DNA of 35,067 nt. Origin: Alphaproteobacteria bacterium (GTDB lineage Bacteria > Pseudomonadota > Alphaproteobacteria > DSM-16000 > Inquilinaceae). The stretch spans positions 1 to 35,067 of the forward strand of contig JAAAOG010000163.1 of the NCBI GenBank assembly GCA_009909005.1, read 5' to 3'. A program made the position numbers and the translations under genes. Below the pieces are notes generated by a model. The model was given only the letters and a program-made list of their open reading frames with translations, was not told where the DNA came from and did not search any database. Below, one piece after another: positions 3,687 to 35,023 of this stretch. How positions within the stretch are numbered: the first letter of the stretch is position 1; the number at the start of each line of letters is the position of its first letter.

Positions 3687-3709
3687 TAATTTTGTATAAT
3701 GGGCGCTCG

Positions 3710-5708: not shown

Positions 5709-6860
5709 GTGTCAGAGACCCCCGAAAATCCGGAAAACGGCGCCGAAGCGCTGAAGACGACCCCGCTGACCGACCTCCACCGCGAGTTCGGCGGGAAGAT
5801 GGTGCCGTTCGCCGGCTATGCCATGCCGGTGCACTACCCTGCCGGCATCATGAAGGAACACCTCCACACCCGCACGGCCGCCGGGCTGTTCGACGTCTCG
5901 CATATGGGCCAGGCGGTGCTCGCCCCCGACGGCGACGATCCCGCGGCGGCCCTGGAGACTCTGGTGCCGGGCGAGTTGCAGGCCCTGAAGCCGGGCCGCA
6001 TGCGCTACACGCTGCTCCTGAACGCTGAGGGGGGCATTCTCGACGACCTGATGGTCGGGCGCCCGACCGACCCGGATGACAAGCGCCTGCTGCTGGTGGT
6101 CAACGCCGCCTGCAAGGACGCCGATTTCGCCCATATCGCCGAAAAGCTGAAAGGGCGCGCCCGCCTGGAACGCGCCGACGACCATGCCCTGCTGGCGCTG
6201 CAGGGCCCGCAGGCAGCCGAAGTCTTTTCCCGCTTCGTGCCCGAGGCGGCGACCCTGAAATTCATGTCCGGCATGAGGGCGACGCTGCTGGGCGTCGATG
6301 GCTGGATCAGCCGCTCCGGCTATACCGGAGAGGACGGCTACGAGATTTCGGTGCCGGCCGACCGGGCCGAGACGCTCGCCCGCGACCTGCTGGCCCAGCC
6401 GGAAGTGCTGCCGATCGGCCTCGGCGCCCGCGATTCGCTGCGGCTGGAGGCGGGGCTCTGCCTCTACGGCCATGACATCGACGAGACCACGACGCCGGTC
6501 GAGGCGAACCTCGCCTGGGCGATCGGCAAGCGCCGGCGGGCCGAGGGCGGCTTCCCCGGCGCCGAGACCATCCTGAAACAGCTGGCCGAGGGGCCCGCCC
6601 GCCGCCGCGTCGGGCTGAAGCCCGAGGGCCGCGCGCCGGTTCGCGAGGGCGCGCCGGTCACCGACCCGGCCGGCGCGGCGATCGGCACGGTGACCAGCGG
6701 CGGCTTCGGCCCCTCGGTCGGCGCCCCGGTGGCGATGGGCTATGTCGCCACCGCGCAGGCCGAGACCGGCACGCCTCTCGCCTTCACGGTACGCGGCAAG
6801 AGCCTGCCCGGCCATGTCGCCGATCTGCCCTTCGTGCCGCAGCGCTATTACCGCGGCTGA
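5709..6860 (+). CDS. gcvT: Glycine cleavage system T protein (aminomethyltransferase)
   Basis: T protein moves the methylene group from the aminomethyl-lipoyl arm of H protein to tetrahydrofolate, releasing ammonia. The 383-residue protein has the family landmarks: TPLTDLHREFGGKMVPFAGYAM near the start, GLFDVSHMGQ, YTLLLNAEGGILDDLMV, SRSGYTGEDGYEI, and the C-terminal barrel segment with GTVTSGGFGPSVGAPVAMGYV. The start is a GTG at 5709 with GAGG upstream. First gene after the glycine riboswitch; gcvH follows after 52 nt. Length is typical for the family. Confidence 0.96.
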   Translation: MSETPENPENGAEALKTTPLTDLHREFGGKMVPFAGYAMPVHYPAGIMKEHLHTRTAAGLFDVSHMGQAVLAPDGDDPAAALETLVPGELQALKPGRMRYTLLLNAEGGILDDLMVGRPTDPDDKRLLLVVNAACKDADFAHIAEKLKGRARLERADDHALLALQGPQAAEVFSRFVPEAATLKFMSGMRATLLGVDGWISRSGYTGEDGYEISVPADRAETLARDLLAQPEVLPIGLGARDSLRLEAGLCLYGHDIDETTTPVEANLAWAIGKRRRAEGGFPGAETILKQLAEGPARRRVGLKPEGRAPVREGAPVTDPAGAAIGTVTSGGFGPSVGAPVAMGYVATAQAETGTPLAFTVRGKSLPGHVADLPFVPQRYYRG

Positions 6861-19210: not shown

Positions 19211-19675
19211 TTAACGGACAGCGAGCGGGTGGGGCGAAGATTTGCGCGCGTTCCGCGGCGCTTCCTGCATGCTGTTGCCACTGCCTCGGTGCCGAAGACG
19301 GTCCGCGACACCGGCAAGCGTCGCTTCAGCTGCTGCCCGGACGTCCCGACTGACCATGCCGGCCAGCTGGCTGTCGTTCGCCGCCATACAGAGCCGATGC
19401 GCTGCCGCCGTCAGCCGTACGAGGCCGAGCATGGAGGCGGCACCTTTCAGCCCATGCGCCTGTCCGAACAGGTCTTCCGGATTGCCGACGGCAAGCGCGG
19501 CGTCGATCGCGGCAAGATGTGCCGGGATACGACCGGACATCCGCTCCAGCAACTCCGCGACGCGTTGTCGCCCGACCATGCGCTCCAGCGACGCCAGCTG
19601 CTTCTCATCCAGCAAGACACTGTCAGACGTGCCGGTTTCCGCCTCGGCCGCCGACGTTTTGCTCGGAGTTGTCAT
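19211..19675 (-). CDS. Stand-alone HPt (histidine phosphotransfer) protein 1
   Basis: The 154-residue protein has a single HPt four-helix bundle. The phospho-accepting histidine is H74 in GQAHGLKGAASMLGL. The region before it (DEKQLASLERMVGRQRVAELLERM) is the family's first helix pair. The first 20 residues and the last 25 (basic, serine-rich) look disordered. The start is uncertain: ATG 19675, with in-frame ATGs at 19696 and 19714 as alternatives. It would relay phosphate between hybrid-kinase receivers and response regulators. Divergent from the NarL-type regulator gene, 455 nt away. Confidence 0.85.
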   Translation of the reverse strand: MTTPSKTSAAEAETGTSDSVLLDEKQLASLERMVGRQRVAELLERMSGRIPAHLAAIDAALAVGNPEDLFGQAHGLKGAASMLGLVRLTAAAHRLCMAANDSQLAGMVSRDVRAAAEATLAGVADRLRHRGSGNSMQEAPRNARKSSPHPLAVR

Positions 19676-20130
19676 CACGGTCACACCCTGAATCATCATT
19701 CCGGCCCAGCACATCGCTCATACGGTCCGCGGAGCCGGGTGGATGAGGCATTCAGAGAATTCCGGAGGAGCGGTCTCCCCGTTCGTCGGCGCCTCTTTCG
19801 TGCAGCGACCGCGCCGGCCGCCGCCAAAGGACGCGCCGGTATCGTCAAAACGGTTTGACCGGACCGCTTTCAGGATATCCGGGAGGAGCAGGCATAAACC
19901 CTGACCCGATTATGCGAGAATGTCTTCGTTTCAACGGAAATCACAAGCCGAACCCTGTCATATCGACTGAATACCTTGATATGCGTCTCGATTAAGGATA
20001 TAAAACGTCTCCCGGTGCCGGGATAAAAGGATACTGGCTATCCGAAAATATGTCCTTCGGCCTTGCCGCCACGCAGCAGCAATCCATTTCCCACGTTGTA
20101 AGAATGACAGAATGTCGCAGCCGGTGAAGC
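19676..20130. other. Divergent regulatory region between HPt 1 and NarL-type regulator
   Basis: The 455-nt region has no supported gene. The right half is AT-richer and holds the regulator's probable promoter (19976-20004) and two small stem-loops in the expected 5' UTR: TCCCGG/CCGGGA at 20010-20023 and GGATA/TATCC at 20029-20043. The left half (19715-19900) is GC-rich with no clear signal. Confidence 0.5.
19976..20004 (+). promoter_or_regulatory. Sigma70-type promoter of the NarL-type regulator
   Basis: TTGATA at 19976-19981 and TATAAA at 19999-20004 are each one base from consensus, with an ideal 17-nt spacer. This is the best housekeeping-type promoter in the window. It predicts a 5' UTR of about 120 nt with two hairpins. 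Confidence 0.65.
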
Positions 20131-20799
20131 ATGAAGATCGTGATCGCTGACGACCATCCGATCGTCGCGCAAGCCATCAAGACCATATTGGAAGCGGCCG
20201 ATCCCTCGACCGACGTCATTGTCCATGCCCGCATCACGAACCTGATGACCGCGCTGAACGAGGGTCCGCTGCCGGACTTCGTGCTGATCGATTATTGCAT
20301 GCCGGATGCGCCAGACGGCTCGGCCATCTTCGAGATCCGCGATCGCTATCCCGATTTGCGGCTCGGCATCATATCCGGTACGGAGGATATGGAAATCGTC
20401 CGCAAGGTCATGGCGGCCGGGGCGCTCGGCTTCATTCCGAAGTCGATGGCGCCGGAAGCAATGGTCCACGCCATCTGGGTCATGGCCGCCGGCGGGCATT
20501 ACCTGCCCTGGCCGATCATGATGCAGGACAGCGCCGCCGCGCCGGCCGGATCGCAGGACGTGGCCGGCGACTCCCTGCCGGGCGAGGCGTCGGCCGCCGC
20601 CTTGACGGACCGGGAGCGCGAGGTCCTGGATGAACTGGTGCGCGGCCTGTCGAACAAGGAAATCGGCACCAATCTCGGCATTGCCGAGGTCACCGTCAAA
20701 CTGCACCTCCGGCGACTATACAAGAAAATCAACGTCTCCAACCGCGCCAGCGCCGTCCGTTTCGCGCTGGAGAACCGGTCCTTGAATAATCCCGCATAA
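20131..20799 (+). CDS. NarL/FixJ-type response regulator (REC + LuxR HTH)
   Basis: The 222-residue transcription regulator has a receiver domain at 1-120: acidic pair D7-D8, phospho-acceptor D54 in VLIDYCMPD and conserved K104 in GFIPKS. The C-terminal LuxR-type helix-turn-helix is at about 155-215, with LTDREREVLDELVRGLSNKEIG and VTVKLHLRRLYKKINVSNR. The start follows GGTGAA. It is divergent from HPt 1, a plausible phosphodonor. It is the only DNA-binding output protein in the signalling cluster, so it is the likely end point of one relay (inference). The linker at 130-150 is Ala/Gly-rich. Confidence 0.93.
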   Translation: MKIVIADDHPIVAQAIKTILEAADPSTDVIVHARITNLMTALNEGPLPDFVLIDYCMPDAPDGSAIFEIRDRYPDLRLGIISGTEDMEIVRKVMAAGALGFIPKSMAPEAMVHAIWVMAAGGHYLPWPIMMQDSAAAPAGSQDVAGDSLPGEASAAALTDREREVLDELVRGLSNKEIGTNLGIAEVTVKLHLRRLYKKINVSNRASAVRFALENRSLNNPA

Positions 20800-20829
20800 C
20801 CCCCTCCAAAACTGAATAATATCGCATAA
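20782..20829 (+). repeat. Imperfect 18-bp direct repeat at the 3' end of the regulator gene
   Basis: TTGAATAATCCCGCATAA (20782-20799, the last six codons including the stop) recurs as CTGAATAATATCGCATAA (20812-20829) with a 30-bp period and 3 mismatches. Probably a small duplication of the gene end; a protein-binding site is less likely. Confidence 0.6.
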
Positions 20830-21108
20830 TTGAGGCCCCTGAACGACCTTCTCTGGTCTCCATATTTCAACCATATACCCGAAAGGGGTATGGGTATCAG
20901 CCTTTCGGACAAGGCTAAAACAATGCACGATACTTTTGCTCGCCCCGCGAATATCTGTCTGGTTAACTCTCGATTAAGAACATCCCCGTATTCATCAACC
21001 TTGGAAGCGATTTGTTCGGCTTCGAACGCTCGGGAATTGATCGACGCGCTTCGGGCCCGTCCTGGCCCTCTTCCCGGACGCAACCACAACAGAATGGGGA
21101 GACTTCCC
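20800..21108 (+). other. Leader region of the chemoreceptor gene with alternative stem-loops
   Basis: The 309-nt region before the chemoreceptor start is AT-richer than its surroundings. ATACCC/GGGTAT (20875-20880 with 20886-20891) and CCGAAAGG/CCTTTCGG (20879-20886 with 20901-20908) overlap, so only one can form at a time. The chemoreceptor frame is open through much of this region, but it has in-frame non-coding-like composition and poor start signals. I see no sigma28 or sigma54 consensus. Confidence 0.4.
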
Positions 21109-23925
21109 ATGCCACGTCTCAATCTGCGCATTAAGCCAAAGCTGGTTGCCGGATTTCTTCTCGTCGGACTGATCCCTGCCGTCGCAATTGGCGCCATTGC
21201 CCTGACCGAAGCCCGGTCGGCCCTGGAAGAGGACGCTTTCGCGACCCTGCAGGGGCTGCGCGACACCAAGGCTCACGAAATCGAGAGTTTCTTCGCGGGA
21301 AGCGAAGAGGATCTGCGCTCGGTCGTCGAAACCGTCCGGATCTTTCAGCAGAATGCCCAGGCCCGGCTGGCGGCCCTGCAGGCCGCCAAACGCAGCGAGG
21401 TGGAAGCCTATTTCGATGAGGTCCGGCGGGATGCGGAAAGCCTGGCGCGCCTGAATGAAGTCCGGGACCTCCTCGGCGGGACCGAAGGTCGCGTCGCCGC
21501 ACCCCTGGCCGGCTCGGCCCGGTCCGACGCGGACGCCGCCCTTCAGGCCTTCGCCGGGACCGAAGGCTACCGCGATCTGCTGGTGATCGATGCCGACCGC
21601 GGCCGGGTCCTCTTCTCGGCCAACCGCCCGGCGCTCAGCGGCCGCAGCCTGAGCGCGGGAGCCCTGGCCGGCGCAGGCCCGGCCCGCGCTTGGCAGCGGG
21701 TAATGGAGACGGGAGAGCCGCATCTGGCCGATTTCGCCCCCTATGCCCCGGGCGACGGCGTCCAGGCCGCCTTCATCGCCGCGCCCGTCATGCTGGCCGG
21801 CGAGATCGCCGGTGTGGTGGCCCTGGAGCTGTCCGCCGACCCGCTCAACGCCATCGTCCAGCGGCGCGACGGCATGGGCGAAAGCGGCGAAACCTATCTG
21901 GTCGGCCGCACGGCAGACCGCATCGCCCTGCGCAGCGATCTCGTCACCATGGGCGACGGCGCCTATGTCGTCGGCTTCGACGGGATCGTGACGCCCTATA
22001 TGGAACGGGCGCTCGACGGCGAGGATGCCAGTGCGGTCCTCACCGACAGCGCCGGCCGGCTGGTCCTGGTCGATTACGAGCCGCTGGACATCGCCGGCCT
22101 GACCTGGGCGATCATCTCGAAAATGAACCTGGAGGAGGCCATTGCCACGCGCCTGGCCGGGCAGGAGGGCGACTTCTTCGGCCATTTCATCGAAGAGCAC
22201 GGCTATTACGACCTCTTCCTCATCCATCCCGAGGGCGAGGTCTTCTACACCGTGAGCCGCGAGGCCGATTTCGGCACCAACATGCTGACCGGCCCCTATG
22301 CCGACAGCGGGCTGGGCACCGCCCTCCGGGGAGCGCTGGACAGCGGCCGCCTCGTCCTCGCCGATTTCGCCCCCTATGCGCCGAGCGACGGCGCGCCGGC
22401 CGCTTTCATCGCCATGCCGCTGATGCACCATGGCCAGGTCGAACTGGTCGTGGCGCTGCAGCTGTCGATCACCGAGATCAATGAGGTCATGCTGCAGCGC
22501 GCCGGCCTCGGCGAAACCGGCGAGACCTATCTCGTCGGGCCGGACCGGCTCATGCGCTCGGACGCGCATGGCGACCCGACGAACCGCACGGTGGCAGCGT
22601 CCTTCGCCAATCCGGACCGCGGCACTGTCGACACGGACTCGGTCGCCGCGGCCCTGGCGGAGGAGACGGGCAGCGATCTGGTCACCAACTATGCCGGGCA
22701 TCGCGTCCTGTCGGCCTATGCGCCGCTCCATGTCGGCGACATGACCTGGGCACTGGTCGCGGAAATCCGCGAGGCGGAAGCCTTTGCGGCCGTCACCGAT
22801 CTGCAAGGACTGATGGCGATCCTGGCCGCGATCGGCATCCCGGCGGTGGCCGGCTTCGGGTTCTGGCTGGCGCGGTCGGTCGCCAATCCCGTGGTCGGCA
22901 TGACCGGCGCCATGCGCATCCTCGCCGGCGGCGACAAGACCGCCGCGATCCCTTCGCAGGACCGCGTCGACGAGATCGGCGAGATGGCCAAGGCCGTCCA
23001 GGTCTTCAAGGACAACATGATCCGCAATGACGAGCTGGCGGAGGAGGCGCGCAAGGAGCAGGAGGAACGCAGCCGCCGGGCGCAGCAGATCGAGAGCCTG
23101 ACGACCGCCTTCGACAGTGACGTCTCGGGCATGCTGGGCAGCGTCACCTCGGCGACCACCCAGCTCGAGGCGACCGCCGACAGCCTGTCGGCAACCGCGG
23201 AGGAGGCCACGCAGCAGGTCTCGGTCGTCGCCGCGGCCTCCGAGCAGTCGGCCGCCAATGTCCAGACGGTCGCCGCCTCGGCCGAGGAGCTGACCACCTC
23301 CATCCAGGAGATCGGCCGCCAGGTCGTCCGCCAGGCCGAACTCGCCGCAAGCGCCGTGGAGGAGGCGGACAGCAGCAACGCCAAGGTGCAGGAGCTCGCG
23401 GGGGCCGCCCGGCAGATCGGCGAGGTCGTCTCGCTTATCACGTCGATTGCCGAGCAGACCAATCTCCTGGCCCTGAACGCCACGATCGAGGCGGCCCGGG
23501 CGGGCGATGCCGGCAAGGGCTTCGCCGTCGTCGCCTCGGAGGTCAAGAACCTGGCCAACCAGACGGCCAAGGCGACCGGGGAGATCTCCGCCCAGATCGC
23601 CGCCATTCAGGGCTCGACCGACGAGACGGTCGAGGCCATCGAGCGCATCGGCCGGCAGATCAGGGACATGAACGAGATCGCCTCGTCGGTGGCCGCCGGC
23701 ATGGAGGAGCAGAACGCCGCCACCCAGGAGATCGCCCGCAATGTCCAGGAAGCCGCGGCCGGATCAGCCCAGGTGACCGATAATGTCGGCCATGTCCGCG
23801 AGGCGGCCGGCACCACCGGTCAGTCGGCAAGTTCGGTGCGCGAAGCGTCCGGCGAACTCTCCCGCCAGGCCGAAAGCCTGAAGGGCGTGGTCGAGCGCTT
23901 CCTCGGCGACGTGCGTTCGGCGTGA
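21109..23925 (+). CDS. Methyl-accepting chemotaxis protein with duplicated periplasmic sensory module
   Basis: The 938-residue membrane chemoreceptor has TM1 at about 8-30 ([20 protein letters not shown]), a very large periplasmic part at 31-565, TM2 at 568-590, HAMP at about 590-640 and a cytoplasmic signalling hairpin at 660-930 whose tip contains [19 protein letters not shown] from about 782. The periplasmic part holds two similar modules about 211 residues apart: [12 protein letters not shown] to [10 protein letters not shown], and [12 protein letters not shown] to [10 protein letters not shown], resembling Cache/PAS-like folds. No C-terminal CheR/CheB tether pentapeptide. The ATG at 21109 has GGGGAGA upstream; a longer frame reaches 20830 but places TM1 far inside. 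Ligand unknown. Usual receptors are 500-650 residues, so this is unusually long. Confidence 0.93.
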
Positions 23926-23935
23926 CCGGGGCTGT

Positions 23936-23957
23936 GGGGCGTCCGCGCGGGCGCCCC
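23936..23957 (+). terminator. Hairpin after the chemoreceptor gene
   Basis: GGGGCG (23936-23941) pairs with CGCCCC (23952-23957), 11 nt after the stop. No T-tract follows, so it may only attenuate or stabilise. Confidence 0.35.
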
Positions 23958-24005
23958 ATGGTCCTGACCTCAAGCGAATGAAACGATACGGAAGGAATCC
24001 CGATA

Positions 24006-24290
24006 ATGTCCCAGACAGCGTGTCACCAGTCCGCCCACGCTCCGGAGACCGAGATCACGGTGGAAGAGGTGATGGCGATGCTCGGACCCCATGTCAGCAA
24101 ACTGAACAGCGACCTGGCAATCCTGCAGCGGGGGTCGAGAGCCATTTGCGCCAGCTTGCGCCAGATCGTCTTTCTGTCACGGAATAACGGTTCGGTCGCG
24201 CATGACCGGATTATCGAGATCCTGGAGAGAAACGGCGTGTTGCATTTGCATGAGCAGGCGATATCGCTGGAAACGGGAGCGCTGGAATGA
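24006..24290 (+). CDS. Small helical protein of unknown function in the signalling cluster
   Basis: The 94-residue protein starts at an ATG with GGAAGGA about 9-12 nt upstream, 80 nt after the chemoreceptor gene and in the same direction. It is mostly helical: EITVEEVMAMLGPHVSKLN, then SDLAILQRGSRAICASLRQI, then HDRIIEILERNGVLHLHEQ. No signal peptide, membrane helix or known motif. Possibly co-transcribed with the chemoreceptor; a coupling or regulatory role is a guess. Its end lies 51 nt from the convergent HPt 2 stop. Confidence 0.65.
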   Translation: MSQTACHQSAHAPETEITVEEVMAMLGPHVSKLNSDLAILQRGSRAICASLRQIVFLSRNNGSVAHDRIIEILERNGVLHLHEQAISLETGALE

Positions 24291-24340
24291 GCGGAGCGCA
24301 AGGCACGCTGCCGACCCAGCCGCCCAGCCTATGTCGGTGC

Positions 24341-24739
24341 CTATGTCGGATCCTCGCGGTCCGGAGGAGGCAGATAGCGCAATGTGTCTGCAACGGCCCG
24401 TCGGAGATCCTCCAGCGCCGGCATGGGGGAACGGCCTTGATCGGCTGCGTCGCAAAAGGCTTCGGCCGCCGCGGCAAGGCGTGCCGCCCCCAGCATGCCG
24501 GCGGCTCCCTTCAGGCCATGGGCCAGGCCGGAGGCCTGCGCGCCGTCGCCCGCTTCCAGGGCCACGACGATAGCGTTCAGGTCCTGCGTCGCCCGCTCAG
24601 CCAATTGGCGCAACAGGCTCTCAAGCCGCGGCCGGCCCAGCATGCCCTCCAGCATCTGCAAGCGGTCCGACTGAAGCAGAGTTGCGGCGTGCACAGCCCG
24701 GCCTTGCGCATTCATGATCGATCGCAACATTGCCGCCAT
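24341..24739 (-). CDS. Stand-alone HPt (histidine phosphotransfer) protein 2
   Basis: The 132-residue HPt protein has phospho-acceptor H74 in SGLAHGLKGAAGMLGAARL, preceded by LLQSDRLQMLEGMLGRPRLESLL and QLAERATQDLNAIV. It is clearly a paralogue of HPt 1: same length before the histidine and nearly the same HGLKGAA-ML core. Start chosen at ATG 24739; ATG 24730, with GGGATGG upstream, is equally possible. Longer readings of this frame (to 25489) run antisense through the receiver gene and are not real. Divergent from single-domain receiver 1. Confidence 0.85.
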   Translation of the reverse strand: MAAMLRSIMNAQGRAVHAATLLQSDRLQMLEGMLGRPRLESLLRQLAERATQDLNAIVVALEAGDGAQASGLAHGLKGAAGMLGAARLAAAAEAFCDAADQGRSPMPALEDLRRAVADTLRYLPPPDREDPT

Positions 24740-24813
24740 CCCACTGCCGGGCCGATCGATGCCAATAACGATCGGTACCACACAGGAGGTGGAGCAATCT
24801 CGGGCGGTGTAAA

Positions 24814-24825
24814 GGCATGTATGCC
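24814..24825. repeat. Small palindrome between HPt 2 and receiver 1
   Basis: GGCATGTATGCC is a GGCAT/ATGCC inverted repeat with a 2-bp centre, in the 234-nt divergent intergenic region. Could be an operator half-site pair; no family recognised. Confidence 0.3.
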
Positions 24826-24973
24826 ATAATGTGCCCAACCCGACTATTCGCTGCCATCGGATCTTCGGACGGATAGCACTCGTTCGGTTAATTGAGAAAA
24901 GTTTACAAATGAATTTAACCGGAGTCAGCGTCGGTGCCGACTGCCCGATGACGGGGTACCAAAGGAGAAAACC

Positions 24974-25372
24974 GTGGCAACGGTTCTCATCATCGATGAT
25001 GACGAAATTCTGGGAACCATCGTCAGGGATCTGGTTGCCCTTTGCGGGTACCGGCCGATCCTCCGGTATAGTGGCCGCGATGGACTGGCATGTTTCTATG
25101 AGACATCGCCGGATGCGGTTGTGACCGACATTCTGATGCCGGATTGCGAAGGCATCGAGATCATCCGGAAGGTCCGCAACCACCGGCCCGGAACGCCGAT
25201 CATCGCGATGTCCGCCGGCGGACGCATGGGGGCGGGCTATGTGCTGCAGACGGCGGAGCGGATGGGAGCCGATTTCGTCCTCAGGAAACCCTTCGATCCC
25301 GGGGAGATGACCCGGGCGCTGCACGAGGCGGTTTCCCGGATTCGGCCGGGCGCGCCGGCGGTCTCCGGCTGA
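24974..25372 (+). CDS. Single-domain response regulator (receiver) 1
   Basis: The 132-residue protein consists only of a CheY-like receiver: acidic cluster IIDDDEI at 6-12, phospho-acceptor D52 in VVTDILMPDCEG, and lysine K105 in FVLRKPFD. No output domain. The start is GTG 24974 with AAAGGAG upstream. It is divergent from HPt 2 and followed 310 nt later by a paralogue. Such proteins usually act as phosphate intermediates or sinks, or bind a kinase or motor directly. The IIDDDE, TDILMP, CEGIE, IIAMSAGG, MGADFVL and KPFD segments are shared with receiver 2. Confidence 0.92.
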   Translation: MATVLIIDDDEILGTIVRDLVALCGYRPILRYSGRDGLACFYETSPDAVVTDILMPDCEGIEIIRKVRNHRPGTPIIAMSAGGRMGAGYVLQTAERMGADFVLRKPFDPGEMTRALHEAVSRIRPGAPAVSG

Positions 25373-25682
25373 CCGAGACACGAGAAAGTCAATCCGGGCC
25401 ACCCGCACCACCGTTTGCGTGTACCAGGCCGGTTTCTCGGGATCTTCCAAAGTATATCTGACTTTCGGACAATTGCCGCCGGCAGGCAATTGAATACTTT
25501 ACTATGTCTGTTGGGTTTGCGTCAAATGTGCATAAAACTCTACAGTGTTCCGTCACGGCCTTTCTGAGTGTTCCCAGGAAACGTCGCCGGCCGTTAACGT
25601 GGCCGGACGACTGCAAAGAAGCGCGTAAGGTGCGGCCGTTCCTGTTGGCCGGCGCCATGTGTCCCTATCCGGAGAGCCGCCC
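25373..25682. other. Intergenic region between the two single-domain receivers
   Basis: The 310-nt region has no supported gene. It carries a strong nested inverted repeat at 25449-25500 (core 25470-25492) and AT-rich flanks that could hold a promoter for receiver 2. GGAGAG lies just before the receiver 2 ATG. Confidence 0.5.
25449..25500. promoter_or_regulatory. Nested inverted repeat, possible operator or hairpin
   Basis: CAATTGCC (25470-25477) pairs with GGCAATTG (25485-25492) around a 7-bp centre, and outer arms AAAGTAT (25449-25455) and ATACTTT (25494-25500) add a second symmetric pair. Could bind a dimeric regulator or form a cruciform; no T-tract for a terminator. Confidence 0.45.
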
Positions 25683-26084
25683 ATGGCGACCGTGCTGATC
25701 ATCGATGATGACGAAATCTCCCGGACGATTGTCCATGACATCGTTCTTCTTTGCGGGCATAAGGCGATCATCGCTTGGGACGGACGCGAAGGGCTGGCGC
25801 GTTACCGCGCGGAATGGCCGGACGTCGTGGTCACCGACATCCTGATGCCGGAATGCGAGGGCATCGAAGTGATCCGCACCATCCGCCGTGACGGGCTCGC
25901 CACCCAGATAATCGCGATGTCGGCCGGCGGCGCCTTCGATCGCGACTATGTCCTGACCATGGCGGACCGCATTGGTGCCGATTTCGTCCTGACCAAGCCC
26001 TTCGACTTCGACGCGTTGACCCTGACCCTGCAACGCGCCGCCTCCCGCGGACGCGGCCCCGATCTGGCCATTTCGGGATCGTGA
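25683..26084 (+). CDS. Single-domain response regulator (receiver) 2
   Basis: The 133-residue CheY-like receiver is paralogous to receiver 1 and begins with the same MATVLIIDDDEI. Phospho-acceptor D52 is in VVTDILMPECEG, and the lysine in FVLTKPFDFD. ATG 25683 has GGAGAG upstream; an ATG 24 nt earlier lacks one. The gene ends inside a 20-bp tandem repeat. The NMT1-PAS kinase gene follows 56 nt later in the same direction, which suggests co-transcription and a kinase-receiver pairing (inference). Confidence 0.92.
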   Translation: MATVLIIDDDEISRTIVHDIVLLCGHKAIIAWDGREGLARYRAEWPDVVVTDILMPECEGIEVIRTIRRDGLATQIIAMSAGGAFDRDYVLTMADRIGADFVLTKPFDFDALTLTLQRAASRGRGPDLAISGS

Positions 26085-26117
26085 TGCCATCCTTTGTATC
26101 GTGATGCCATCCTTTGT
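26078..26117 (+). repeat. Perfect 20-bp tandem repeat across the receiver 2 stop codon
   Basis: ATCGTGATGCCATCCTTTGT occurs twice back to back (26078-26097 and 26098-26117). The first copy contains the TGA stop of receiver 2 (26082-26084). The second falls in the short gap before the sensor kinase gene, 24 nt from its ATG. Confidence 0.9.
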
Positions 26118-26140
26118 AAGGACGTTCGGCCATTTGCCCC

Positions 26141-29100
26141 ATGGCTAGGAGTTGGCTCAGAACCGTGCGCCGAGCGATCGGCGCTTGCTGCCGTGCAGCC
26201 TGTTCGGCGGCCGTCGTTTCGTGCCTGGCTTTCCCTGCCGCACAGGCGCATGACCGAATCGTGCTGCAACTGCGCTGGGACCACGAGTTCCAGTTCGCCG
26301 GCTATTACGCCGCGCTCTGGCAGGGCTTCTACGAAGAGGAGGGGCTGCAGGTCGAGATCCGCTCGCGCATCGCTTCGGACGGGTCCTTCCGCGACATTTT
26401 CGAGGAAGTGGAGTTGGGCCGGGCCGATTTCAGTATCGGCGGCGCGGACATTCTGGTCCACAACGACCGCGGCGCCGATTACGTGGTATTGGCGACGATC
26501 CTCCATGAGAGCCCCAACGCCTTCTACGCCCTGAGCCGGGAGACCCTGCACGAACCGGCCGACTTCCTGCGCCATCCGGTGGCCCTGCTGGACAACGACT
26601 ATGACAGCCTGGAGCTGTTCGCCATGCTGGTGGCGGAAGGCCTGGACCCCGATCAGGTCGACCGCCGGCCCTTCCAGCCGGGGCTGGAGCCGCTGCTGCG
26701 CGGCGATTTCGCCATCACGCCCAGCTACCGCATGTCGGCGGAATGGCGGGCCCGGGAACTCGGCATCGACCTGGCCCGCCTGGTGGCCTCCGATTTCGGC
26801 GCCGCCTTCTACGGCGATACGCTGTTCACGACGCGCGCGTTCGTCGAGAGTCATCCCGACATGGCGGACCGCTTCGTCCGGGCCTCGCTGCGCGGCTGGG
26901 CCTATGCCCTGGAACATGAACGGGACATCGCCGAGCGGATCACGGCCGAGCTGCCGCGCCACATTCCTTACGAGAACCTGCTCGGCTACAACCTCTTTTC
27001 GGCAGAGGTGGTCCGCAGCCTGACCGGCTACCCGCTGGTCGAGCTCGGCCATACCAGCCCGGCGCGCTGGCAGCGCATGCACCAGCTGCTGGCCGATGCC
27101 GGCTTTGTCGACGGCGAGTTCGATGCGGCCCGGCTGATTTTCGACCCCGCGGCGGAGCGGGCCGCGCGGCTCAGAACCTGGATTCTCATCATTCTGGTTC
27201 CCGGGGCTGCCGGGCTGGCGCTCGCCGGAGCCGGCTTTGCAGGCATCACCATCCTGCGCCGCAAGGTTGCGGCGGCAACTCGGGCCCTGCAGGCCGAGCG
27301 CCGGACCCTGCAGCTGATCCTCGATACCGCGCCGGTGGCGATCTTCTGGAAAGACCGGGAACACCGTTACCAGGGATACAACAGGCAGGCGCGGGCGATC
27401 GCAGGGATCGACCGGACGCGGACCGTCATCGGGAAAACCGACCACGACCTCTTCACCGAGACCGTCGCCCGGGAATTCCAGGCAAGTGATGCAGCCATCA
27501 TGGCAGGCGGCAAGCCGGAGCACGATGTGCTGCTCACCTACATACGGCCCGACGGCGAGATCCGCTATATCAAGCGCCGCAAGGTGCCGCTGCATTCCGA
27601 CTCCGGCTCGGTGGAGGGTGTGCTGGCCTGCGTCGAGGACGTCACGGAATTCCTGACGGCGGAGCGGCAGATCCGCGAGAATTTCAGTCTGCTGCGCACC
27701 GTCTTCGATACCATTCCGGATGCGATTTTCGTGAAGGATGAGCACAGCCGCATCGTCATGGCCAATGAGCAGATGGCCGCTCGTTGCGGCCTGACGACCG
27801 AGAGCATCATCGGCAAGGCCACCGAGGAGCTTCTCCCTCCGTCGGCTGCCGCGGCAATGATCGAGATCGATCGCGAGGTCATGCGGACCGGCGTGATTCG
27901 CACGTCGGAGGAGGAGGAGCTGGTGTGCGGCGGCGCTCCATTGACCTGCCAAACGGTCAAGGCGCCCTATCGGGACGCCGACGGCCGGGTCAAGGGCATC
28001 GTCGTTATGGCCCGCGATATCACCGGGCGCCTCAAGGAGTTGCAGACCCTGCGGGAAGCCAATCGCCAGGCGGCGATCTTCCGGCGCATGGTGGAATCGG
28101 CGACGCAGGGAATCGGCACGGCGGATCTGAACGGCAATGTCGACTATCAGAACCCGGCGCTGCTCCGCATGCTCGGCCTGTCATCTCTTGAGGAGGCCCG
28201 AGAATACACCTATCGCGATTTCTACAGCGAACAGGACCTTGCCTTTCTTGAGAGCGTCGCCATTCCGAAGGTTCACGAGCAGGGATCCTGGGTGGGAGAG
28301 TTGGCGGTTCGGACGCTGAACGGAGGCGTCACGCCCACCATACAGAACATCTATCTCTTAAGGGATGATGAGGGGAAGCCGCTTGCCCTCTGCAATGTGG
28401 TCACGGACATAACGGACCGTGTCGAGGCCGAGCGGCGGATTCGCGAAAGCGAGATGCGCTACAGAACCCTCTTTGAGCTGTCCCATGATCCTGTTCTCGT
28501 TGTGGATCCGGAAACGACCCTGCCCTTGGAGTTCTCCGAAAGGCTCTGCTCATTCCTCGGCTATACGGCCAAGGAGGTGGCTACGCTCCCGGTTGCCGCT
28601 TACGAAGCCGTGGAGAGCCCGAACGCGGTGAGGGCGCATATCGACAGGGTCGTGCGCGAAGGCGGCGATCAGTTCGAGACCCGCATGCGGCGCAAGGACG
28701 GCAGTGTCAGGGAGGTGATCGTCATCGCCCGTACGATCCAGCTTGGAAACAAGACGGTGTGCCATAGCCTCTACCGCGATGTGACCGAGCAGCGGCAAGC
28801 GGAAGCGGCCCTGAGAAGCGTCAATCAGGAGTTGGAGCGGCGGGTCGAGGAGATGGTCGCCCGCAACCGGGAAAAGGATCACCTCATCATCCAGCAATCG
28901 CGCCTGGCCGCGATGGGCGAGATGATCGGCCACATTGCCCACCAATGGCGCCAGCCGATCAATGCGCTCGGCCTGCTTCTGGCAAACCTGCGCGATGCGT
29001 ATGACTATGGCGAACTCGATACGGCCTATCTCGACGCGCAGCTGCAAAAGGGCCGGCAGCTGATCCAGCGCATGTCGGCAACCATCGACGATTTCCGCAG

Positions 29101-29659
29101 CTTCTTCAGCCAGGGGCGGGAGAACGAGCCCTTCCGGATCGTCGATGCCGTGCGCGATGCCGTGTCGGTCATGGAAGCCAGCCTCGTCTATCACGGCATC
29201 GACGTCGCCATCGAGGCCGACGAAACCCTGTTTGCCGAAGGGTTCCGGCGCGAGTTCTCGCAAGTCATCCTGAACATTCTGGCCAATGCCAAGGATGCAA
29301 TCCAAAACCGGACCGGGGAGAAGGGAAAGGTGACAGTGCGCATTTCGTGCCAAGACCATGAAAATTGTATGGGGAAAATCGAGATCGCCGACAATGGCGA
29401 GGGTGTTCCGGTGGACATCCTGCCGAGAATATTCGATCCGTATTTCACGACACGGCCGAAAGGGCTGGGAATCGGGCTCCATATGGCCCGAATTATTGTC
29501 GAGCAGAAAATGGGCGGACGCATAGACGCGTATAATGCCGGGCAGGGGGCGGAAATTTCAATTATTTTACCATTGTCTGCAGAAATACCGGGGTTATCTC
29601 CCCGGCCGGCAACGATCGAAGAGAGCCCGACCCATGGCAATGCCTCTACGGAAAAATGA
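26141..29659 (+). CDS. NMT1/THI5-type periplasmic sensor - PAS4 - histidine kinase
   Basis: The 1172-residue sensor kinase has an N-terminal basic and hydrophobic signal segment ending near AQAHD. A periplasmic NMT1/THI5-like substrate-binding domain follows (about 37-320), with LQLRWDHEFQFAGYYAA, FYEEEGLQVEI and ADFSIGGADILV. One TM helix lies at about 347-370, then four PAS units (about 385-500, 510-630, 645-765, 770-890), a short coiled coil, and the dimerisation helix with phospho-histidine H934 in IAHQWRQPIN (HPK4-type). The ATPase domain has ILNILANAKDAI, IADNGEGVP and GLGIGL. No receiver of its own. The C-terminus overlaps the next hybrid kinase by 26 bp. The binding domain family recognises pyrimidine or thiamine precursors and similar small molecules; the ligand here is unknown. 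Confidence 0.93.
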   Translation: MARSWLRTVRRAIGACCRAACSAAVVSCLAFPAAQAHDRIVLQLRWDHEFQFAGYYAALWQGFYEEEGLQVEIRSRIASDGSFRDIFEEVELGRADFSIGGADILVHNDRGADYVVLATILHESPNAFYALSRETLHEPADFLRHPVALLDNDYDSLELFAMLVAEGLDPDQVDRRPFQPGLEPLLRGDFAITPSYRMSAEWRARELGIDLARLVASDFGAAFYGDTLFTTRAFVESHPDMADRFVRASLRGWAYALEHERDIAERITAELPRHIPYENLLGYNLFSAEVVRSLTGYPLVELGHTSPARWQRMHQLLADAGFVDGEFDAARLIFDPAAERAARLRTWILIILVPGAAGLALAGAGFAGITILRRKVAAATRALQAERRTLQLILDTAPVAIFWKDREHRYQGYNRQARAIAGIDRTRTVIGKTDHDLFTETVAREFQASDAAIMAGGKPEHDVLLTYIRPDGEIRYIKRRKVPLHSDSGSVEGVLACVEDVTEFLTAERQIRENFSLLRTVFDTIPDAIFVKDEHSRIVMANEQMAARCGLTTESIIGKATEELLPPSAAAAMIEIDREVMRTGVIRTSEEEELVCGGAPLTCQTVKAPYRDADGRVKGIVVMARDITGRLKELQTLREANRQAAIFRRMVESATQGIGTADLNGNVDYQNPALLRMLGLSSLEEAREYTYRDFYSEQDLAFLESVAIPKVHEQGSWVGELAVRTLNGGVTPTIQNIYLLRDDEGKPLALCNVVTDITDRVEAERRIRESEMRYRTLFELSHDPVLVVDPETTLPLEFSERLCSFLGYTAKEVATLPVAAYEAVESPNAVRAHIDRVVREGGDQFETRMRRKDGSVREVIVIARTIQLGNKTVCHSLYRDVTEQRQAEAALRSVNQELERRVEEMVARNREKDHLIIQQSRLAAMGEMIGHIAHQWRQPINALGLLLANLRDAYDYGELDTAYLDAQLQKGRQLIQRMSATIDDFRSFFSQGRENEPFRIVDAVRDAVSVMEASLVYHGIDVAIEADETLFAEGFRREFSQVILNILANAKDAIQNRTGEKGKVTVRISCQDHENCMGKIEIADNGEGVPVDILPRIFDPYFTTRPKGLGIGLHMARIIVEQKMGGRIDAYNAGQGAEISIILPLSAEIPGLSPRPATIEESPTHGNASTEK

Positions 29660-32006
29660 TTTCAGGGGTTGGGAAAACCATCTCCCGCATTTCTCTGTTC
29701 TTTATGTCGAGGATGATGAGTCGGTGCTTGAGCAGCTGTCGATGTTTCTCAATCGACGGGTGGGCTCTCTCTACGTCGCCAGGAACGGTGTAGAGGGTCT
29801 GGCGGCCTTCGGCCGTGACCGTCCGGATATCGTCATTACCGACATCGTGATGCCGGAAATGGACGGCCTGACCATGGCGGAACGGATCAAGCAGCTCGAT
29901 CCGGCGACGCCGGTCATCGTCACCACCGCCGTCAGCGAGACCGACCATCTGATCCGCGCGATCGAGATCGGCATCGACAAATATGTTCTGAAGCCGATCG
30001 ACACGGCGGCCCTGCTCGAGGCCGTCGGACGCATTGCGGCCGGACTGCAGCAGCAGCGGCGCCTCACAGTCTTCGGCAAGGCGCTCGATGAGGTGACCGA
30101 CGCCGTGGCCCTGACCGAGCGGACCGGCAGGATTGTCTATGCCAACCGCGCCTTCCGTCGCGCCGTCGCCGAGGACGGGCATGACGTCGTCGATCGGCAG
30201 GCGCAGGACCTGATATCGATTGTCGAACCGCCCAACCTGCTCGAAAGACTCTGGAGCGAAACGCAGCGGTCATGGCGGGGCGAGGTCACGGTGCGCACTG
30301 CCGGAGGCATGCGCTACGCGCTTGCCCTGTACAATGTCCTGAAGGACCTGCGCGGCAGCACGCCCCTCGGCTTTCTCATGCTGATCGACCTGACGGAGCA
30401 GCGCGAAGCCGAGGAGGCCGTGGCGGCGGCCCGGGCCGACGCGGCCGCGGCGGCCGCGGCGAGCGCGGCGAAGTCGCGCTTCCTGGCCAATATCAGCCAC
30501 GACATCCGCACGCCGATGACCGGTGTGCTCGGCATGCTAGAGCTTGTCAAGCGCACGGAACTGTCCGGCATCCAGCGCCACTACATCGATGCTGCGGCCG
30601 AGTCCGGACAGAGCCTGCTGACCATCCTCAACAACGTGCTGGACCTTGCCAGGATCGAGGCCGGACGGCTGGACCTGCGCAGCGAACCGCTGGACCTTGC
30701 CGACCTTGCGGCCGACATCCTGCGGCTGTTCGCGCTGCCGGCCCACGACAAGGGGATCGAGCTGGTCCTGCGCGTCGCGGGCGACTGTCCGGGCCGTCTC
30801 CTGGGCGACGAAGGCCGCATCCGCCAGATCCTGATGAATCTCGTCGGCAACGCCCTGCGCTTCACGGAGACCGGCGAGGTCGAACTGGTCGTCGAGACGG
30901 CGATCGAGGACGACGGCGACGTCCGCGTCGCCGTCGGCGTGCGGGACACCGGCATCGGCATCGAACCCGAGGCGCAGAGACGGATCTTCGACGTGTTCAG
31001 CCAGGCCGACGAAGCGACGACCCGGCGCTTCGGCGGCACCGGGCTGGGCCTGACCATTGCCAGCGAGCTGGCGCAGCATATGGGCGGGGGCATCACCGTG
31101 GAGAGCGTGCCCGGGGCCGGGTCCCTGTTCCGGGCGATCGTGCGTTTGCGGCCGGCTCCGGGGCCGGTGGATGACCGCCCCGCCGACCTGACAGGCCGGC
31201 GCTTTCTCGTGGTCGACCCGAATGGCGCCGCCCGCCGCGCCGTCTGCGAGCGACTGGCCGGGGCCGGCGCCGAGACCATCGCCGCCGCGCGCCTTGCCGA
31301 GGCCGCGGCGCTGCTGGAGAGCGGCAGCGATGATGCGCCGCCGGCAGCGGCGCTGATCGACGTCCATCTTCTCAAGGGACGGGATGGTGCGGAAGACGCC
31401 GCTGCCCGCATGGCCATCGCCCGGCAGGCCGGGATGCTGGTGGCGCTCGGCGGCTTCCTCGATGTCGATCCGTCCGCGGACGACGCCACCGATAGTGCCG
31501 GCCTGCTGGTCAAGCCGGGGAGTCCGGCGCGGTTCCTGGCCGCGCTCGAGCGCATGATCGCCGGTCGGCAGCCCGCGGCCGACGATGCGGTGGGTGCGGA
31601 GGCCCGGCTCGCCGCCTCGATCCTGCTGGCCGAGGACGATCCCATGACGGCCGAAATCACCATCGGCATTCTCGAGGCTGCCGGGGCGGCGGTCTCTCAT
31701 GTTGCCAATGGACGGGCGGCCGTCGAGGCCTGGGAAGCCGGCACCTTCGATGTCGTCCTCATGGACTGCCAGATGCCGGAGATGGACGGCTTCGACGCGG
31801 CACGACAGATTCGGGCCCGCGAGACTGTGCGGCCGGCCGGCCGGCGCACCCCCATTCTCGCCTTGACCGCCAGCGCCCTGGACGAGGATGCCCGGACCTG
31901 CCTCGAGGCCGGCATGGACGACCGTCTCGTCAAGCCTTTGACCCCCGACCTGCTGGTCATGAGACTGCGCCGGTCCTTGGCAGGGCGCGCTGAGCCGCTT
32001 AGTTGA
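29634..32006 (+). CDS. Hybrid histidine kinase REC-PAS-HisKA-HATPase-REC-REC
   Basis: The 790-residue protein is cytoplasmic, with no membrane helix. Receiver 1 at about 20-135 has D70 in VITDIVMPEMDG. A PAS unit at about 150-265 is followed by an alanine-rich helix, then HisKA with H289 in ANISHDIRTPM, and an ATPase domain with LMNLVGNALRF, VRDTGIGIEP and GGTGLGLTI. Receiver 2 (about 522-640) is degenerate: VVDPNGAARRAV lacks the acidic pair, although LIDVHL and LLVKPG remain. Receiver 3 (about 660-780) is canonical with D711 in VVLMDCQMPEMDG. The start at ATG 29634, with GAGAG upstream, overlaps the NMT1 kinase by 26 bp, so translation is coupled and the front receiver probably accepts phosphate from that kinase (inference). 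Receiver 3 needs an HPt; two are encoded nearby. Confidence 0.94.
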   Translation: MAMPLRKNDFRGWENHLPHFSVLYVEDDESVLEQLSMFLNRRVGSLYVARNGVEGLAAFGRDRPDIVITDIVMPEMDGLTMAERIKQLDPATPVIVTTAVSETDHLIRAIEIGIDKYVLKPIDTAALLEAVGRIAAGLQQQRRLTVFGKALDEVTDAVALTERTGRIVYANRAFRRAVAEDGHDVVDRQAQDLISIVEPPNLLERLWSETQRSWRGEVTVRTAGGMRYALALYNVLKDLRGSTPLGFLMLIDLTEQREAEEAVAAARADAAAAAAASAAKSRFLANISHDIRTPMTGVLGMLELVKRTELSGIQRHYIDAAAESGQSLLTILNNVLDLARIEAGRLDLRSEPLDLADLAADILRLFALPAHDKGIELVLRVAGDCPGRLLGDEGRIRQILMNLVGNALRFTETGEVELVVETAIEDDGDVRVAVGVRDTGIGIEPEAQRRIFDVFSQADEATTRRFGGTGLGLTIASELAQHMGGGITVESVPGAGSLFRAIVRLRPAPGPVDDRPADLTGRRFLVVDPNGAARRAVCERLAGAGAETIAAARLAEAAALLESGSDDAPPAAALIDVHLLKGRDGAEDAAARMAIARQAGMLVALGGFLDVDPSADDATDSAGLLVKPGSPARFLAALERMIAGRQPAADDAVGAEARLAASILLAEDDPMTAEITIGILEAAGAAVSHVANGRAAVEAWEAGTFDVVLMDCQMPEMDGFDAARQIRARETVRPAGRRTPILALTASALDEDARTCLEAGMDDRLVKPLTPDLLVMRLRRSLAGRAEPLS

Positions 32007-32205
32007 AAATCATAGACAATATTTTATCTCAGGAATATCTCCGTCTCGCGAACCGGCATGGGTTCTCTCAGATACATCTTCTCCTGAGTTGGAAATGGCG
32101 TGGACGGTTGCGCCCGGGCCTTGCTATCGTCCGACCTTATCGGGAATGCGGTCACTTCCCGGGAACACCCGCTATTCGTTTTCCGTTGCTTTTGGATCGG
32201 TACCG

Positions 32206-33438
32206 ATGCAGGGGACGGGCTTCGCCCAACTGTCCGATACGCGCCGGGCCGTCGATGCGGCCCTGGACGCGGCGCTGGCGGACAGCCTGGGCGATCCGCC
32301 CGGGCTGGCGCTCGTGTTCGTCGGCGGCCGGCACGATCCCCGGATCGCCTGGGAGCGGCTGAGCCATGCCCTGTCGCCCGTCCCGATCATCGGCGGTGCG
32401 GCCGTCGGCTGTATCGGCGCGGGACGGCTCGGCTATTCCGGGTTCGAGGTCAGTGTTGCCCTGTTCCCGGCGCGTTGCGGCCCGTTCCTGACCCTGACCT
32501 CCCCCGACCTGCGCGATGGGGAGTTCGCCGCCGGGCGCGCGCTGGGCGCCCGGATCGCCGCGCTCGGCCGCAAGACGCCGACCGTTCTGCTGTTCTTCGA
32601 CAGCGTGATCGACGCCGGCCCGCCGCCGCGGCTTCACCCCTGCAGCCATCTTGTCGACGGGGTGTATGCCGGGCTCGAGGGCCATCCGATCGAGCTCTCC
32701 GGTGCCGGCACCCTGGCGGATTTCACCCTGAGCAACAGCTGGCTGTTCGCCGGGGGCAGCCTTGTGCGCCATGCGGCCGTCGCCGTCATCTGTCCGCCGG
32801 CGCTGTCGGCAGAAACGGCGATTTTCCATGGATGCATTCCAATTTCGGGCCATTTTACGATTACCCGCATCGAGGGCTCGCTGCTTTATGAACTTGACGG
32901 GCAGCCGGCCGAGGCAGTGATCCGGGGGTTCCTGCCGGACGGCGTGCCGAGCCGCGAGACCAAGCTCATGCTCCATATCACCATCGGCCAGGATTGCAGC
33001 CCCGGAAACGCCGAATTTGAGGAGCACAATTACGTCAATCGGCTCATTCTTGGTCTCGATGAGGAGAGCGGTGCCGTACGGCTGTTCGATGCGGACTTTG
33101 CCGAGGGTCAGGTCGTGCAATTGATGCTGCGCGATCCCTTTTACGTTCTGGAGACGACCCGCACCGGCTGCGTCCGGGTGGCCGAGCGGCTGAGCCGCGG
33201 CCGACCGTTCGGGGCGCTTTACTTCGATTGCGCCGGCCGCGCCGGCGGGATCAGCGGCACGCCGGAAGAGGAGGCAGAAATCGTGCTTCGCGTCCTGGGG
33301 CCGCATGTTCCTCTGTCGGGATTCTATTCCGCCGTGGAGATCGCGCCGATCCTGGGACGCAGCCGGCCCCTCGACTGGACCGGAGTCCTGACGGTGATTT
33401 ATGAAAAACGGCCGGCCGCCGATGCAGGACCGGAGTGA
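32206..33438 (+). CDS. FIST-domain sensor protein (FIST_N + FIST_C)
   Basis: About 410 residues, cytoplasmic. The FIST N part shows LSDTRRAVDAALDAAL, LALVFVGGRHD, PIIGGAAVGCIGAGRLGYSG and GCIPISGHFTITRIEGSLLY. The FIST C part shows LMLHITIGQDC, YVNRLILGLDEESGAVRLF and RPFGALYFDCAGR. FIST domains are predicted small-ligand (amino-acid-like) sensors, often beside chemotaxis or two-component proteins. The start is unsure: ATG 32206 is where family similarity begins; ATGs at 32089 and 32146 are in frame but lie in poor codon use. The end overlaps the next histidine kinase gene by up to 38 bp, a strong sign of a functional pair. Confidence 0.85.
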   Translation: MQGTGFAQLSDTRRAVDAALDAALADSLGDPPGLALVFVGGRHDPRIAWERLSHALSPVPIIGGAAVGCIGAGRLGYSGFEVSVALFPARCGPFLTLTSPDLRDGEFAAGRALGARIAALGRKTPTVLLFFDSVIDAGPPPRLHPCSHLVDGVYAGLEGHPIELSGAGTLADFTLSNSWLFAGGSLVRHAAVAVICPPALSAETAIFHGCIPISGHFTITRIEGSLLYELDGQPAEAVIRGFLPDGVPSRETKLMLHITIGQDCSPGNAEFEEHNYVNRLILGLDEESGAVRLFDADFAEGQVVQLMLRDPFYVLETTRTGCVRVAERLSRGRPFGALYFDCAGRAGGISGTPEEEAEIVLRVLGPHVPLSGFYSAVEIAPILGRSRPLDWTGVLTVIYEKRPAADAGPE

Positions 33439-34756
33439 CCACTACCGGCGCCGGATGGAGGACCTCGGCAAGCGCCTGATCGCGGCCGAGGAAAGACGGC
33501 GGCTGGCGCAGATCGAGGCGGACCGGACCAGCAAAATCCTGGGGCTCATGCGCCGGGCCCACGATATCGCCGATTCGGCGAGCGACACCAAGGCATTCAG
33601 CCTGCAATACCTGGCGCAGCTCTGCGGGCTGATGCTGACGGATGGCGCGGCGATCCTGATGGCCGATCCGGATGGCGGCGGCGTTCATGGCCTCCATGAA
33701 TTCGGGGCCGCGACTCCGGTGGACCGCCTGCCTGTCTCCGGGAAATTGCCCGACTTCGATTATCTCAACGACTGTAACGCCGGGTCCGAGATCGTCGCGG
33801 CGCTGGCGGCGCATCTCGGTCAGCGACACTTGGCCTGGTCGTGGAACACGGCCGACCGGATCGGACTGGTTCTCATTCGGCAGCCATTCAACGCGGCGCA
33901 GCTGCCCTTTTCGCCGGCCGATCGCGAGGTCATGCAGTCGGCGCTCTCCATCTATTCCGAAGCGCTGAAGCGCCGTCTGGCCCGCGATGCCCTTGTTGCT
34001 GCCAAACGGGCCGCCGAAAAAGCCAACCGGGCGAAATCGGAATTCCTGTCGACCATGAGCCACGAGCTGCGGACGCCGCTCAATGCCATCAACGGCTTTT
34101 CGCAGATGATGCAGCGGGAGGTCTTCGGTCCGCTCGGCAATCCGCACTATCTCGACTATGCCCGCTTCATTCACGAAAGCGGCGAGCATTTGCTGTCGCT
34201 GATCAACGACGTCCTCGACATGTCCCGTATCGAGGCCGGCCGGATGCCATTGCACGAAGAGGCGCTGTGCCTGTCGACGACCATCGGCACGACGGTCCAG
34301 CTGATGCGCGACCAGGCCAAGGACCATGGCCTCGTCCTGATGGCCGGGCTGCCGGCCGATCTCCCGGCGCTCTGGGCCGATCGCCGGGCGATGAAGCAGA
34401 TGATGATCAATCTGCTGTCCAACGCCATCAAATTCACCCCGCGCGGCGGCGAGATCCAGGTTGCGGCAGAGCGCGAGGCCGGGGGTGGCCTGATCCTTTC
34501 GGTTGCCGATACCGGCATCGGCATCCCGGAAGAGGACCAGGCTGTGGTGCTGGAACCGTTCCGCCAGGGCCGCTCCAGCGCGCTCGCCGGGGAAAGCGGC
34601 ACCGGTCTCGGCCTGTCGCTGGTCAAGGCGCTGATCGAGATGCACGACGGCCGCCTGACCCTGACCAGCCGGCCGGGCGAAGGCACCACCGTCAACCTCT
34701 ACTTCCCCGAAAGCCGCCTCTGCCCGACCGACCGCACCGAAACCGGCACCGGCTGA
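33401..34756 (+). CDS. Cytoplasmic histidine kinase coupled to the FIST sensor
   Basis: About 450 residues. The N-terminal helix (RRMEDLGKRLIAAEERRRLAQ) is followed by a GAF-like region at about 60-190 (FSLQYLAQLCGLMLTDGAAILMA). HisKA has the phospho-histidine H221 in TMSHELRTPLNAINGFSQMM, then the ATPase domain with MMINLLSNAIKFTP, VADTGIGIPEED and GTGLGLSLVKALI. No membrane helix and no receiver, so sensing probably comes through the FIST partner or the GAF-like part (inference). Start at ATG 33401 (overlapping) or ATG 33422; neither has a strong ribosome binding site, as expected under translational coupling. It is the last gene of the signalling cluster. Confidence 0.93.
   Translation: MKNGRPPMQDRSDHYRRRMEDLGKRLIAAEERRRLAQIEADRTSKILGLMRRAHDIADSASDTKAFSLQYLAQLCGLMLTDGAAILMADPDGGGVHGLHEFGAATPVDRLPVSGKLPDFDYLNDCNAGSEIVAALAAHLGQRHLAWSWNTADRIGLVLIRQPFNAAQLPFSPADREVMQSALSIYSEALKRRLARDALVAAKRAAEKANRAKSEFLSTMSHELRTPLNAINGFSQMMQREVFGPLGNPHYLDYARFIHESGEHLLSLINDVLDMSRIEAGRMPLHEEALCLSTTIGTTVQLMRDQAKDHGLVLMAGLPADLPALWADRRAMKQMMINLLSNAIKFTPRGGEIQVAAEREAGGGLILSVADTGIGIPEEDQAVVLEPFRQGRSSALAGESGTGLGLSLVKALIEMHDGRLTLTSRPGEGTTVNLYFPESRLCPTDRTETGTG

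Positions 34757-34947: not shown

Positions 34948-35023
<76 letters not shown>

Follow-up and report, generated by a model that had tools for sequence, protein, structure and literature searches.

Several described signalling systems couple a FIST protein to a histidine kinase. NosP-VpsS-LuxU-LuxO of Vibrio cholerae is made up of a FIST protein, a kinase, a histidine phosphotransfer (HPt) protein and a DNA-binding regulator (PMC6769237), and NosP-NahK-HptB of Pseudomonas aeruginosa of a FIST protein, a kinase and an HPt protein (PMC11784011); these systems establish that a FIST-kinase-HPt logic, with or without a terminal regulator, exists. In NosP-NosK-NosR of Burkholderia and NosP-NahK-NarR of Legionella, FIST modulates autophosphorylation of the kinase (PMC12570481, PMC8846402). 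Here we analysed a 15.5-kb phosphorelay gene cluster (19211-34756) of an alphaproteobacterium of the Inquilinaceae, which encodes a FIST protein next to a histidine kinase, designated HK3. It is located on a stretch of 35,067 nucleotides, hereafter the window, which is an entire contig (C182) of a 4.23-Mb assembly of 230 contigs. We consider it fairly probable that the cluster is composite and that several signalling modules were brought together here in this lineage, namely the FIST-HK3 pair, a kinase with an NMT1-like sensor and PAS domains, and a hybrid kinase-HPt-LuxR module, as proposed below.

The locus resembles NosP-NosK-NosR and NosP-NahK-NarR in that the genes for a solo FIST protein, a cytosolic kinase and a receiver protein lie together. 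It differs from both in that the window FIST gives no match to the NosP model and that the upstream receiver is part of a hybrid kinase with no cyclic di-GMP (c-di-GMP) output; moreover, HK3 has a GAF-like N-terminal domain, whereas NosK, compared here by its description only, was reported to be without a recognised sensory domain. A separate HPt protein and a DNA-binding regulator accompany FIST and kinase both here and in NosP-VpsS-LuxU-LuxO; VpsS, however, is a hybrid, and LuxU and LuxO are common to the quorum-sensing kinases, whereas in the window a simple kinase is the FIST partner and the hybrid is encoded by a gene of its own. FIST, kinase and stand-alone HPt likewise recall NosP-NahK-HptB, although, unlike NahK, HK3 lacks the hybrid architecture and has a different N-terminal domain. 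A plasmid cluster of Azospirillum oryzae (locus L107, 257-13545) also brings together a chemoreceptor, a FIST protein, a PAS hybrid kinase and a response regulator, along with CheX, a second kinase and a receiver. Its FIST is more NosP-like, its hybrid has an HPt domain of its own, its regulator is of the REC-HD type and the partner domain described below is missing, hence a similar make-up from other families. The statement in the preliminary description of this DNA that no system of such composition has been described thus holds for the block as a whole, whereas the combination of FIST, kinase, HPt and DNA-binding regulator is already known (PMC6769237), as is that of FIST, kinase and HPt (PMC11784011).

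Composition of the signalling cluster

All signalling parts expected in 19211-34756 were found using Pfam and the list of open reading frames (ORFs), as follows.

19211-19714 (-): HptA, stand-alone HPt protein of 167 aa; Pfam Hpt, 42 bits, HPt motif AHGLKG intact
20131-20799 (+): LuxR/NarL-type response regulator (REC + GerE); Pfam Response_reg and GerE
21109-23925 (+): dCache-HAMP-MCPsignal chemoreceptor; Pfam, ORF open from 20830 with 21109 as the likely start
24006-24290 (+): orphan ORF of 94 aa, no family; no NCBIfam match
24341-24730 (-): HptB, stand-alone HPt protein of 129 aa, paralogue of HptA; Pfam Hpt, 41 bits, AHGLKG intact
24974-25372 (+): REC1, single-domain receiver; receiver D and acid pair present
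25683-26084 (+): REC2, single-domain receiver, tandem duplicate of REC1; Pfam Response_reg
26141-29659 (+): kinase with NMT1/THI5-like periplasmic sensor, several PAS domains and HisKA-HATPase; Pfam
29634-32006 (+): hybrid kinase REC-PAS-HisKA-HATPase-(degenerate REC)-REC; Pfam and motifs
32206 (or 32089)-33438 (+): FIST protein (FIST_N + FIST_C), putative soluble auxiliary sensor; Pfam, 70.1 and 69.7 bits
33401-34756 (+): HK3, N-terminal GAF-like domain (approximately residues 1-208), then HisKA-HATPase; Pfam with profile and structure comparison

The two HPt proteins, four receiver-containing proteins, three kinases, chemoreceptor, FIST protein and single DNA-binding output of the preliminary description are thus each present at their coordinates, the hybrid being counted both among the four receivers and among the three kinases. 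The LuxR-type regulator is the sole DNA-binding output in the cluster. The phospho-acceptor histidine is intact in the three kinases (HQWRQP, SHDIRTP and SHELRTP), and the phospho-acceptor aspartate is kept in all receivers with the exception of the middle one of the hybrid, which lacks the usual acid pair and the DxxMP motif and is degenerate. All four conserved phospho-site types of an HK-REC-HPt-REC multistep phosphorelay are present and intact, and the hybrid itself has no HPt domain according to Pfam.

From 25683 to 34756, all genes are located on the same strand with short gaps or overlaps (56 bp between REC2 and the NMT1-PAS kinase, and an overlap of 26 bp between the latter and the hybrid), and the 19-25 kb section shows mixed orientations. 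HptA and HptB are 41-45% identical, and REC1 and REC2 58%. The 94-aa ORF has a coding-like composition. In promoter and terminator scans, terminator-like sites occurred at chance number and promoter-like sites were weakly in excess (6 against 2.4 expected).

Family searches of the genome counted 48 receiver, 61 HATPase and 8 HPt places. At the mean density of these domains 0.43 would be expected in 15.5 kb, and 10 were observed; the Poisson probability of approximately 4e-11 exaggerates the surprise and serves as a rough guide only, because signalling genes are usually arranged in operons. Elsewhere in the genome, the count reaches at most 5 domains per 15.5 kb. The cluster is therefore the largest and densest phosphorelay gene cluster of this genome, and HptA and HptB are two of its few stand-alone HPt proteins.

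The FIST-HK3 pair and its relatives

The window FIST has the FIST_N + FIST_C architecture, with both domains above the Pfam cut-offs. The fold was confirmed by an AlphaFold2 model (predicted local distance difference test, pLDDT, 91.5), for which FBXO22 was the top solved structure in Foldseek; a search against solved structures by sequence gave no match. The window FIST was not classed as NosP, as neither this protein nor its paralogue elsewhere in the genome (contig C166) matched the NosP model (NCBIfam NF041558, cut-off 450 bits) even at E = 1; an Azospirillum FIST reached 55 bits, far under the cut-off. Similarly, HK3 was below the cut-offs for NahK/ErcS kinases (NF041831 and NF041832), with 115 bits against 400 required for NF041832 and an alignment confined to the kinase core. 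By analogy with NosP, the window FIST may act as a soluble auxiliary sensor of the neighbouring kinase (PMC12570481, PMC8846402).

The FIST and HK3 genes overlap (33401-33438), and the two adjoin in relatives too. A four-member FIST alignment led to 22 loci in named genomes and metagenome-assembled genomes, among them Skermanella, Roseicella, Arboricoccus, Acetobacteraceae, Chromatiaceae and Competibacteraceae. In 24 of the 24 non-window loci where the gene downstream of FIST can be read, this gene opens with an N-terminal partner domain of about 200 residues; an additional locus (L081), where the contig stops just after FIST, stands outside this count. The output that follows this domain varies: it is a HisKA-HATPase kinase in the genome under study and in most alphaproteobacteria, a HisKA_2 kinase in two loci (L079 and L099), and GGDEF-EAL in all five gammaproteobacterial-type loci scanned, while on a Roseomonas mucosa plasmid (L106, 7116-8144) the gene after FIST encodes a protein of 342 aa in which the partner domain precedes a C-terminus without family assignment. 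A profile built from HisKA-type members alone recovered the domain in the GGDEF-EAL proteins (E 1e-20 to 1e-32), and hhalign gave 99.7-99.9% between partner domains of three output classes. The same HisKA-type profile found no partner domain in non-adjacent genes among 2151 ORFs of the FIST loci. In a set of 347 genomes from the class, three occurrences were found, each adjoining this FIST subfamily, and the domain was not found in FIST loci of other subfamilies (L107, L076 and L109).

The FIST and partner trees concur in their main groups. In both, the copies from the window and from C166 form a sister pair with 100/100 support, hence FIST and partner were duplicated together. The C166 pair is flanked by ssb and MATE/gyrA and has no other cluster gene beside it; FIST and partner thus duplicate and relocate jointly, without the remaining cluster genes. 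Skermanella, Roseicella and Arboricoccus, among others, likewise have the pair without the other cluster parts. Judging from gene order and trees, FIST and its GAF-like partner are one inherited unit, which is the best supported finding on the cluster. It should be added that on a contig binned as Terriglobus (Acidobacteriota; L083), the FIST-kinase pair groups with Acetobacteraceae in both trees, which is due to either mis-binning or transfer.

Directly upstream of FIST, a single receiver is located in four loci (L070, L071, L087 and L088), and a kinase-receiver hybrid in three (L082, L084 and L089) as well as in the window. Such recurrence makes the neighbouring receiver the likely target of HK3, and it may reflect repeated recruitment (convergence) rather than common descent.

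Predicted fold of the partner domain

The partner domain has no Pfam match, and no GAF model matched any of its 21 members at E values up to 5. In an AlphaFold2 model (pLDDT 90.6), a long helix leads into a GAF fold, and GAF-containing structures make up the majority of the top Foldseek matches of this model, with E values down to 1e-5. The domain therefore has a predicted GAF fold outside the Pfam GAF models. It shares this predicted fold and the long signalling helices with GAF-domain histidine kinases and phytochromes, and differs from them in being missed by the Pfam GAF models and tied to one FIST subfamily. As far as the open-access literature shows, it may be undescribed.

As a conserved, separately folding domain kept with one FIST subfamily over both kinase and c-di-GMP outputs, it is a candidate docking surface. 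A possible reading, to which we give somewhat less than even chances, is that the GAF-like domain represents an adapter family not yet described, which would be dedicated to receiving the FIST signal and by direct contact would operate interchangeable outputs (HisKA, HisKA_2, GGDEF-EAL and others) and in the present case would feed the hybrid-HPt-LuxR relay. If so, one soluble sensor could drive interchangeable outputs by direct protein contact.

Conservation of the block

Searches covered parts of public collections, including one scan of named genomes. Synteny of the block, proposed earlier as a check, was not borne out: the whole block was present in no other genome searched, and its parts occurred separately. 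Independent inheritance in relatives, named in advance as the outcome that would speak against a single system, is largely what was observed, as FIST-HK3 has a free-standing paralogue, a pair of HPt and LuxR-type regulator occurs apart from the rest in one family member and the 94-aa ORF is an orphan. The latter had no convincing relative in 385 genomes and was dropped as a marker for the block. A search of 61 genomes gave no full-length relative of the NMT1-PAS kinase, with matches covering the sensor half or the kinase half alone. The closest outside matches of HptA are HPt domains located at the C-terminus of hybrid kinases, together with one stand-alone HPt protein, and plasmids gave no match to it. 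This stand-alone protein is encoded in one genome (G006, locus L129) beside a LuxR-type regulator without the other block parts, and single receivers similar to REC2 sit behind PAS kinase-receiver hybrids in two other members of the family. Because the block is absent from the other genomes searched and its parts are found separately, it is not one conserved system; on comparative grounds, its modules were inherited separately and assembled locally. The cluster exemplifies relay parts gathering locally instead of being inherited as one pathway.

A second chemoreceptor on another contig of the genome under study (C12; L072, 5105-9156) is directly followed by an NMT1-PAS kinase. This case suggests that the association of chemoreceptor and NMT1 kinase is recurring.

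Proposed mechanism and alternative explanations

The linkage of FIST to its partner comes from comparison; the ligand sensing and phosphate wiring of the composite locus we infer as follows. In one module, the soluble putative sensor FIST would bind a cytosolic ligand and control HK3 via the N-terminal helix and GAF-like domain of the latter, and HK3 probably phosphorylates a receiver such as that of the hybrid. In another, the periplasmic NMT1-like domain would sense a small solute and drive the PAS kinase, which would phosphorylate REC1/REC2, the receiver at the N-terminus of the hybrid, or both. As the hybrid has no HPt domain, HptA and HptB probably carry phosphate to the LuxR-type regulator, so that a third module would run from the C-terminal receiver of the hybrid through HptA or HptB to this regulator. 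Chemoreceptors need CheA, and a CheA-like frame, recognised from domain order, is located on another contig (C2); the chemoreceptor most likely has its CheA partner at another place in the genome and does not feed this relay.

The composite reading is supported by the linkage of FIST to its partner, by the receivers and hybrids upstream of FIST in relatives, by the HPt-LuxR adjacency in G006, by the similarity of HptA to HPt domains fused to hybrids, by the position of REC2-like receivers behind hybrids and by the common orientation of the genes from 25683 on. Several observations weigh against it: G006 is the sole such case, as 29 further relatives of the LuxR-type protein have no HPt gene within 1.5 kb; an NMT1 kinase followed by a receiver or hybrid gene was found in none of the other loci compared; several loci, C166 included, have no receiver beside the FIST pair; and the Roseicella hybrids upstream of FIST are only 27-29% identical to the hybrid of the window.

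The view taken in the preliminary description, that three kinases feed two HPt proteins and the LuxR-type regulator in one integrated multistep phosphorelay with the chemoreceptor as an extra input, draws on the intact and tightly packed relay parts and on the coincidence of a hybrid without HPt with two of the few genomic stand-alone HPt proteins. Given the absence of the block from the other genomes searched, the separate occurrence of its parts and the dependence of the chemoreceptor on CheA, for which a candidate frame lies on C2, we regard this as unlikely. Of the proposed link between chemosensing and transcription, a multistep relay via the local HPt proteins is plausible, with all parts at hand and a hybrid without HPt, whereas the chemoreceptor enters by adjacency alone. 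We are equally doubtful that the cluster is a chance heap beside a tRNA-Ala gene, with functional links just in FIST-HK3 and in REC2-NMT1 kinase-hybrid. The lack of conserved synteny, the mixed orientations at 19-25 kb and the tRNA-Ala gene at 34948-35023 would fit this; however, the paralogous pairs HptA/HptB and REC1/REC2 inside the block suggest local duplication and divergence, and the genes from 25683 on are co-oriented with overlaps. Less probable still is a NosP-type nitric-oxide relay similar to NosP-VpsS-LuxU-LuxO, formed by FIST-HK3 with the hybrid, HPt and LuxR-type regulator. FIST does adjoin a cytosolic kinase, with an HPt protein and DNA-binding regulator close by, and the nosRPK operon also consists of a receiver protein, FIST and kinase (PMC12570481). 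Against such a relay stand the missing match to the NosP model, to which even an Azospirillum FIST scores far under the cut-off, the weak match of HK3 to the NahK-type model within the kinase core, and the partner domain, which was not found in the FIST loci of other subfamilies (L107, L076 and L109).

Other features of the window

Just past HK3, at the contig end, tRNA-Ala (ggc) is encoded at 34948-35023(-), which may represent an island boundary. A glycine riboswitch aptamer (5452-5538(+), 74 bits) is located upstream of a GcvT-like gene (5709-6860). Furthermore, an ORF of 254 aa at 3665-4429(+) contains a Peptidase M41 domain (242 bits), and the overlapping upstream ORF (1455-3686) has a weak AAA match; together they constitute an unusual split FtsH-like arrangement.

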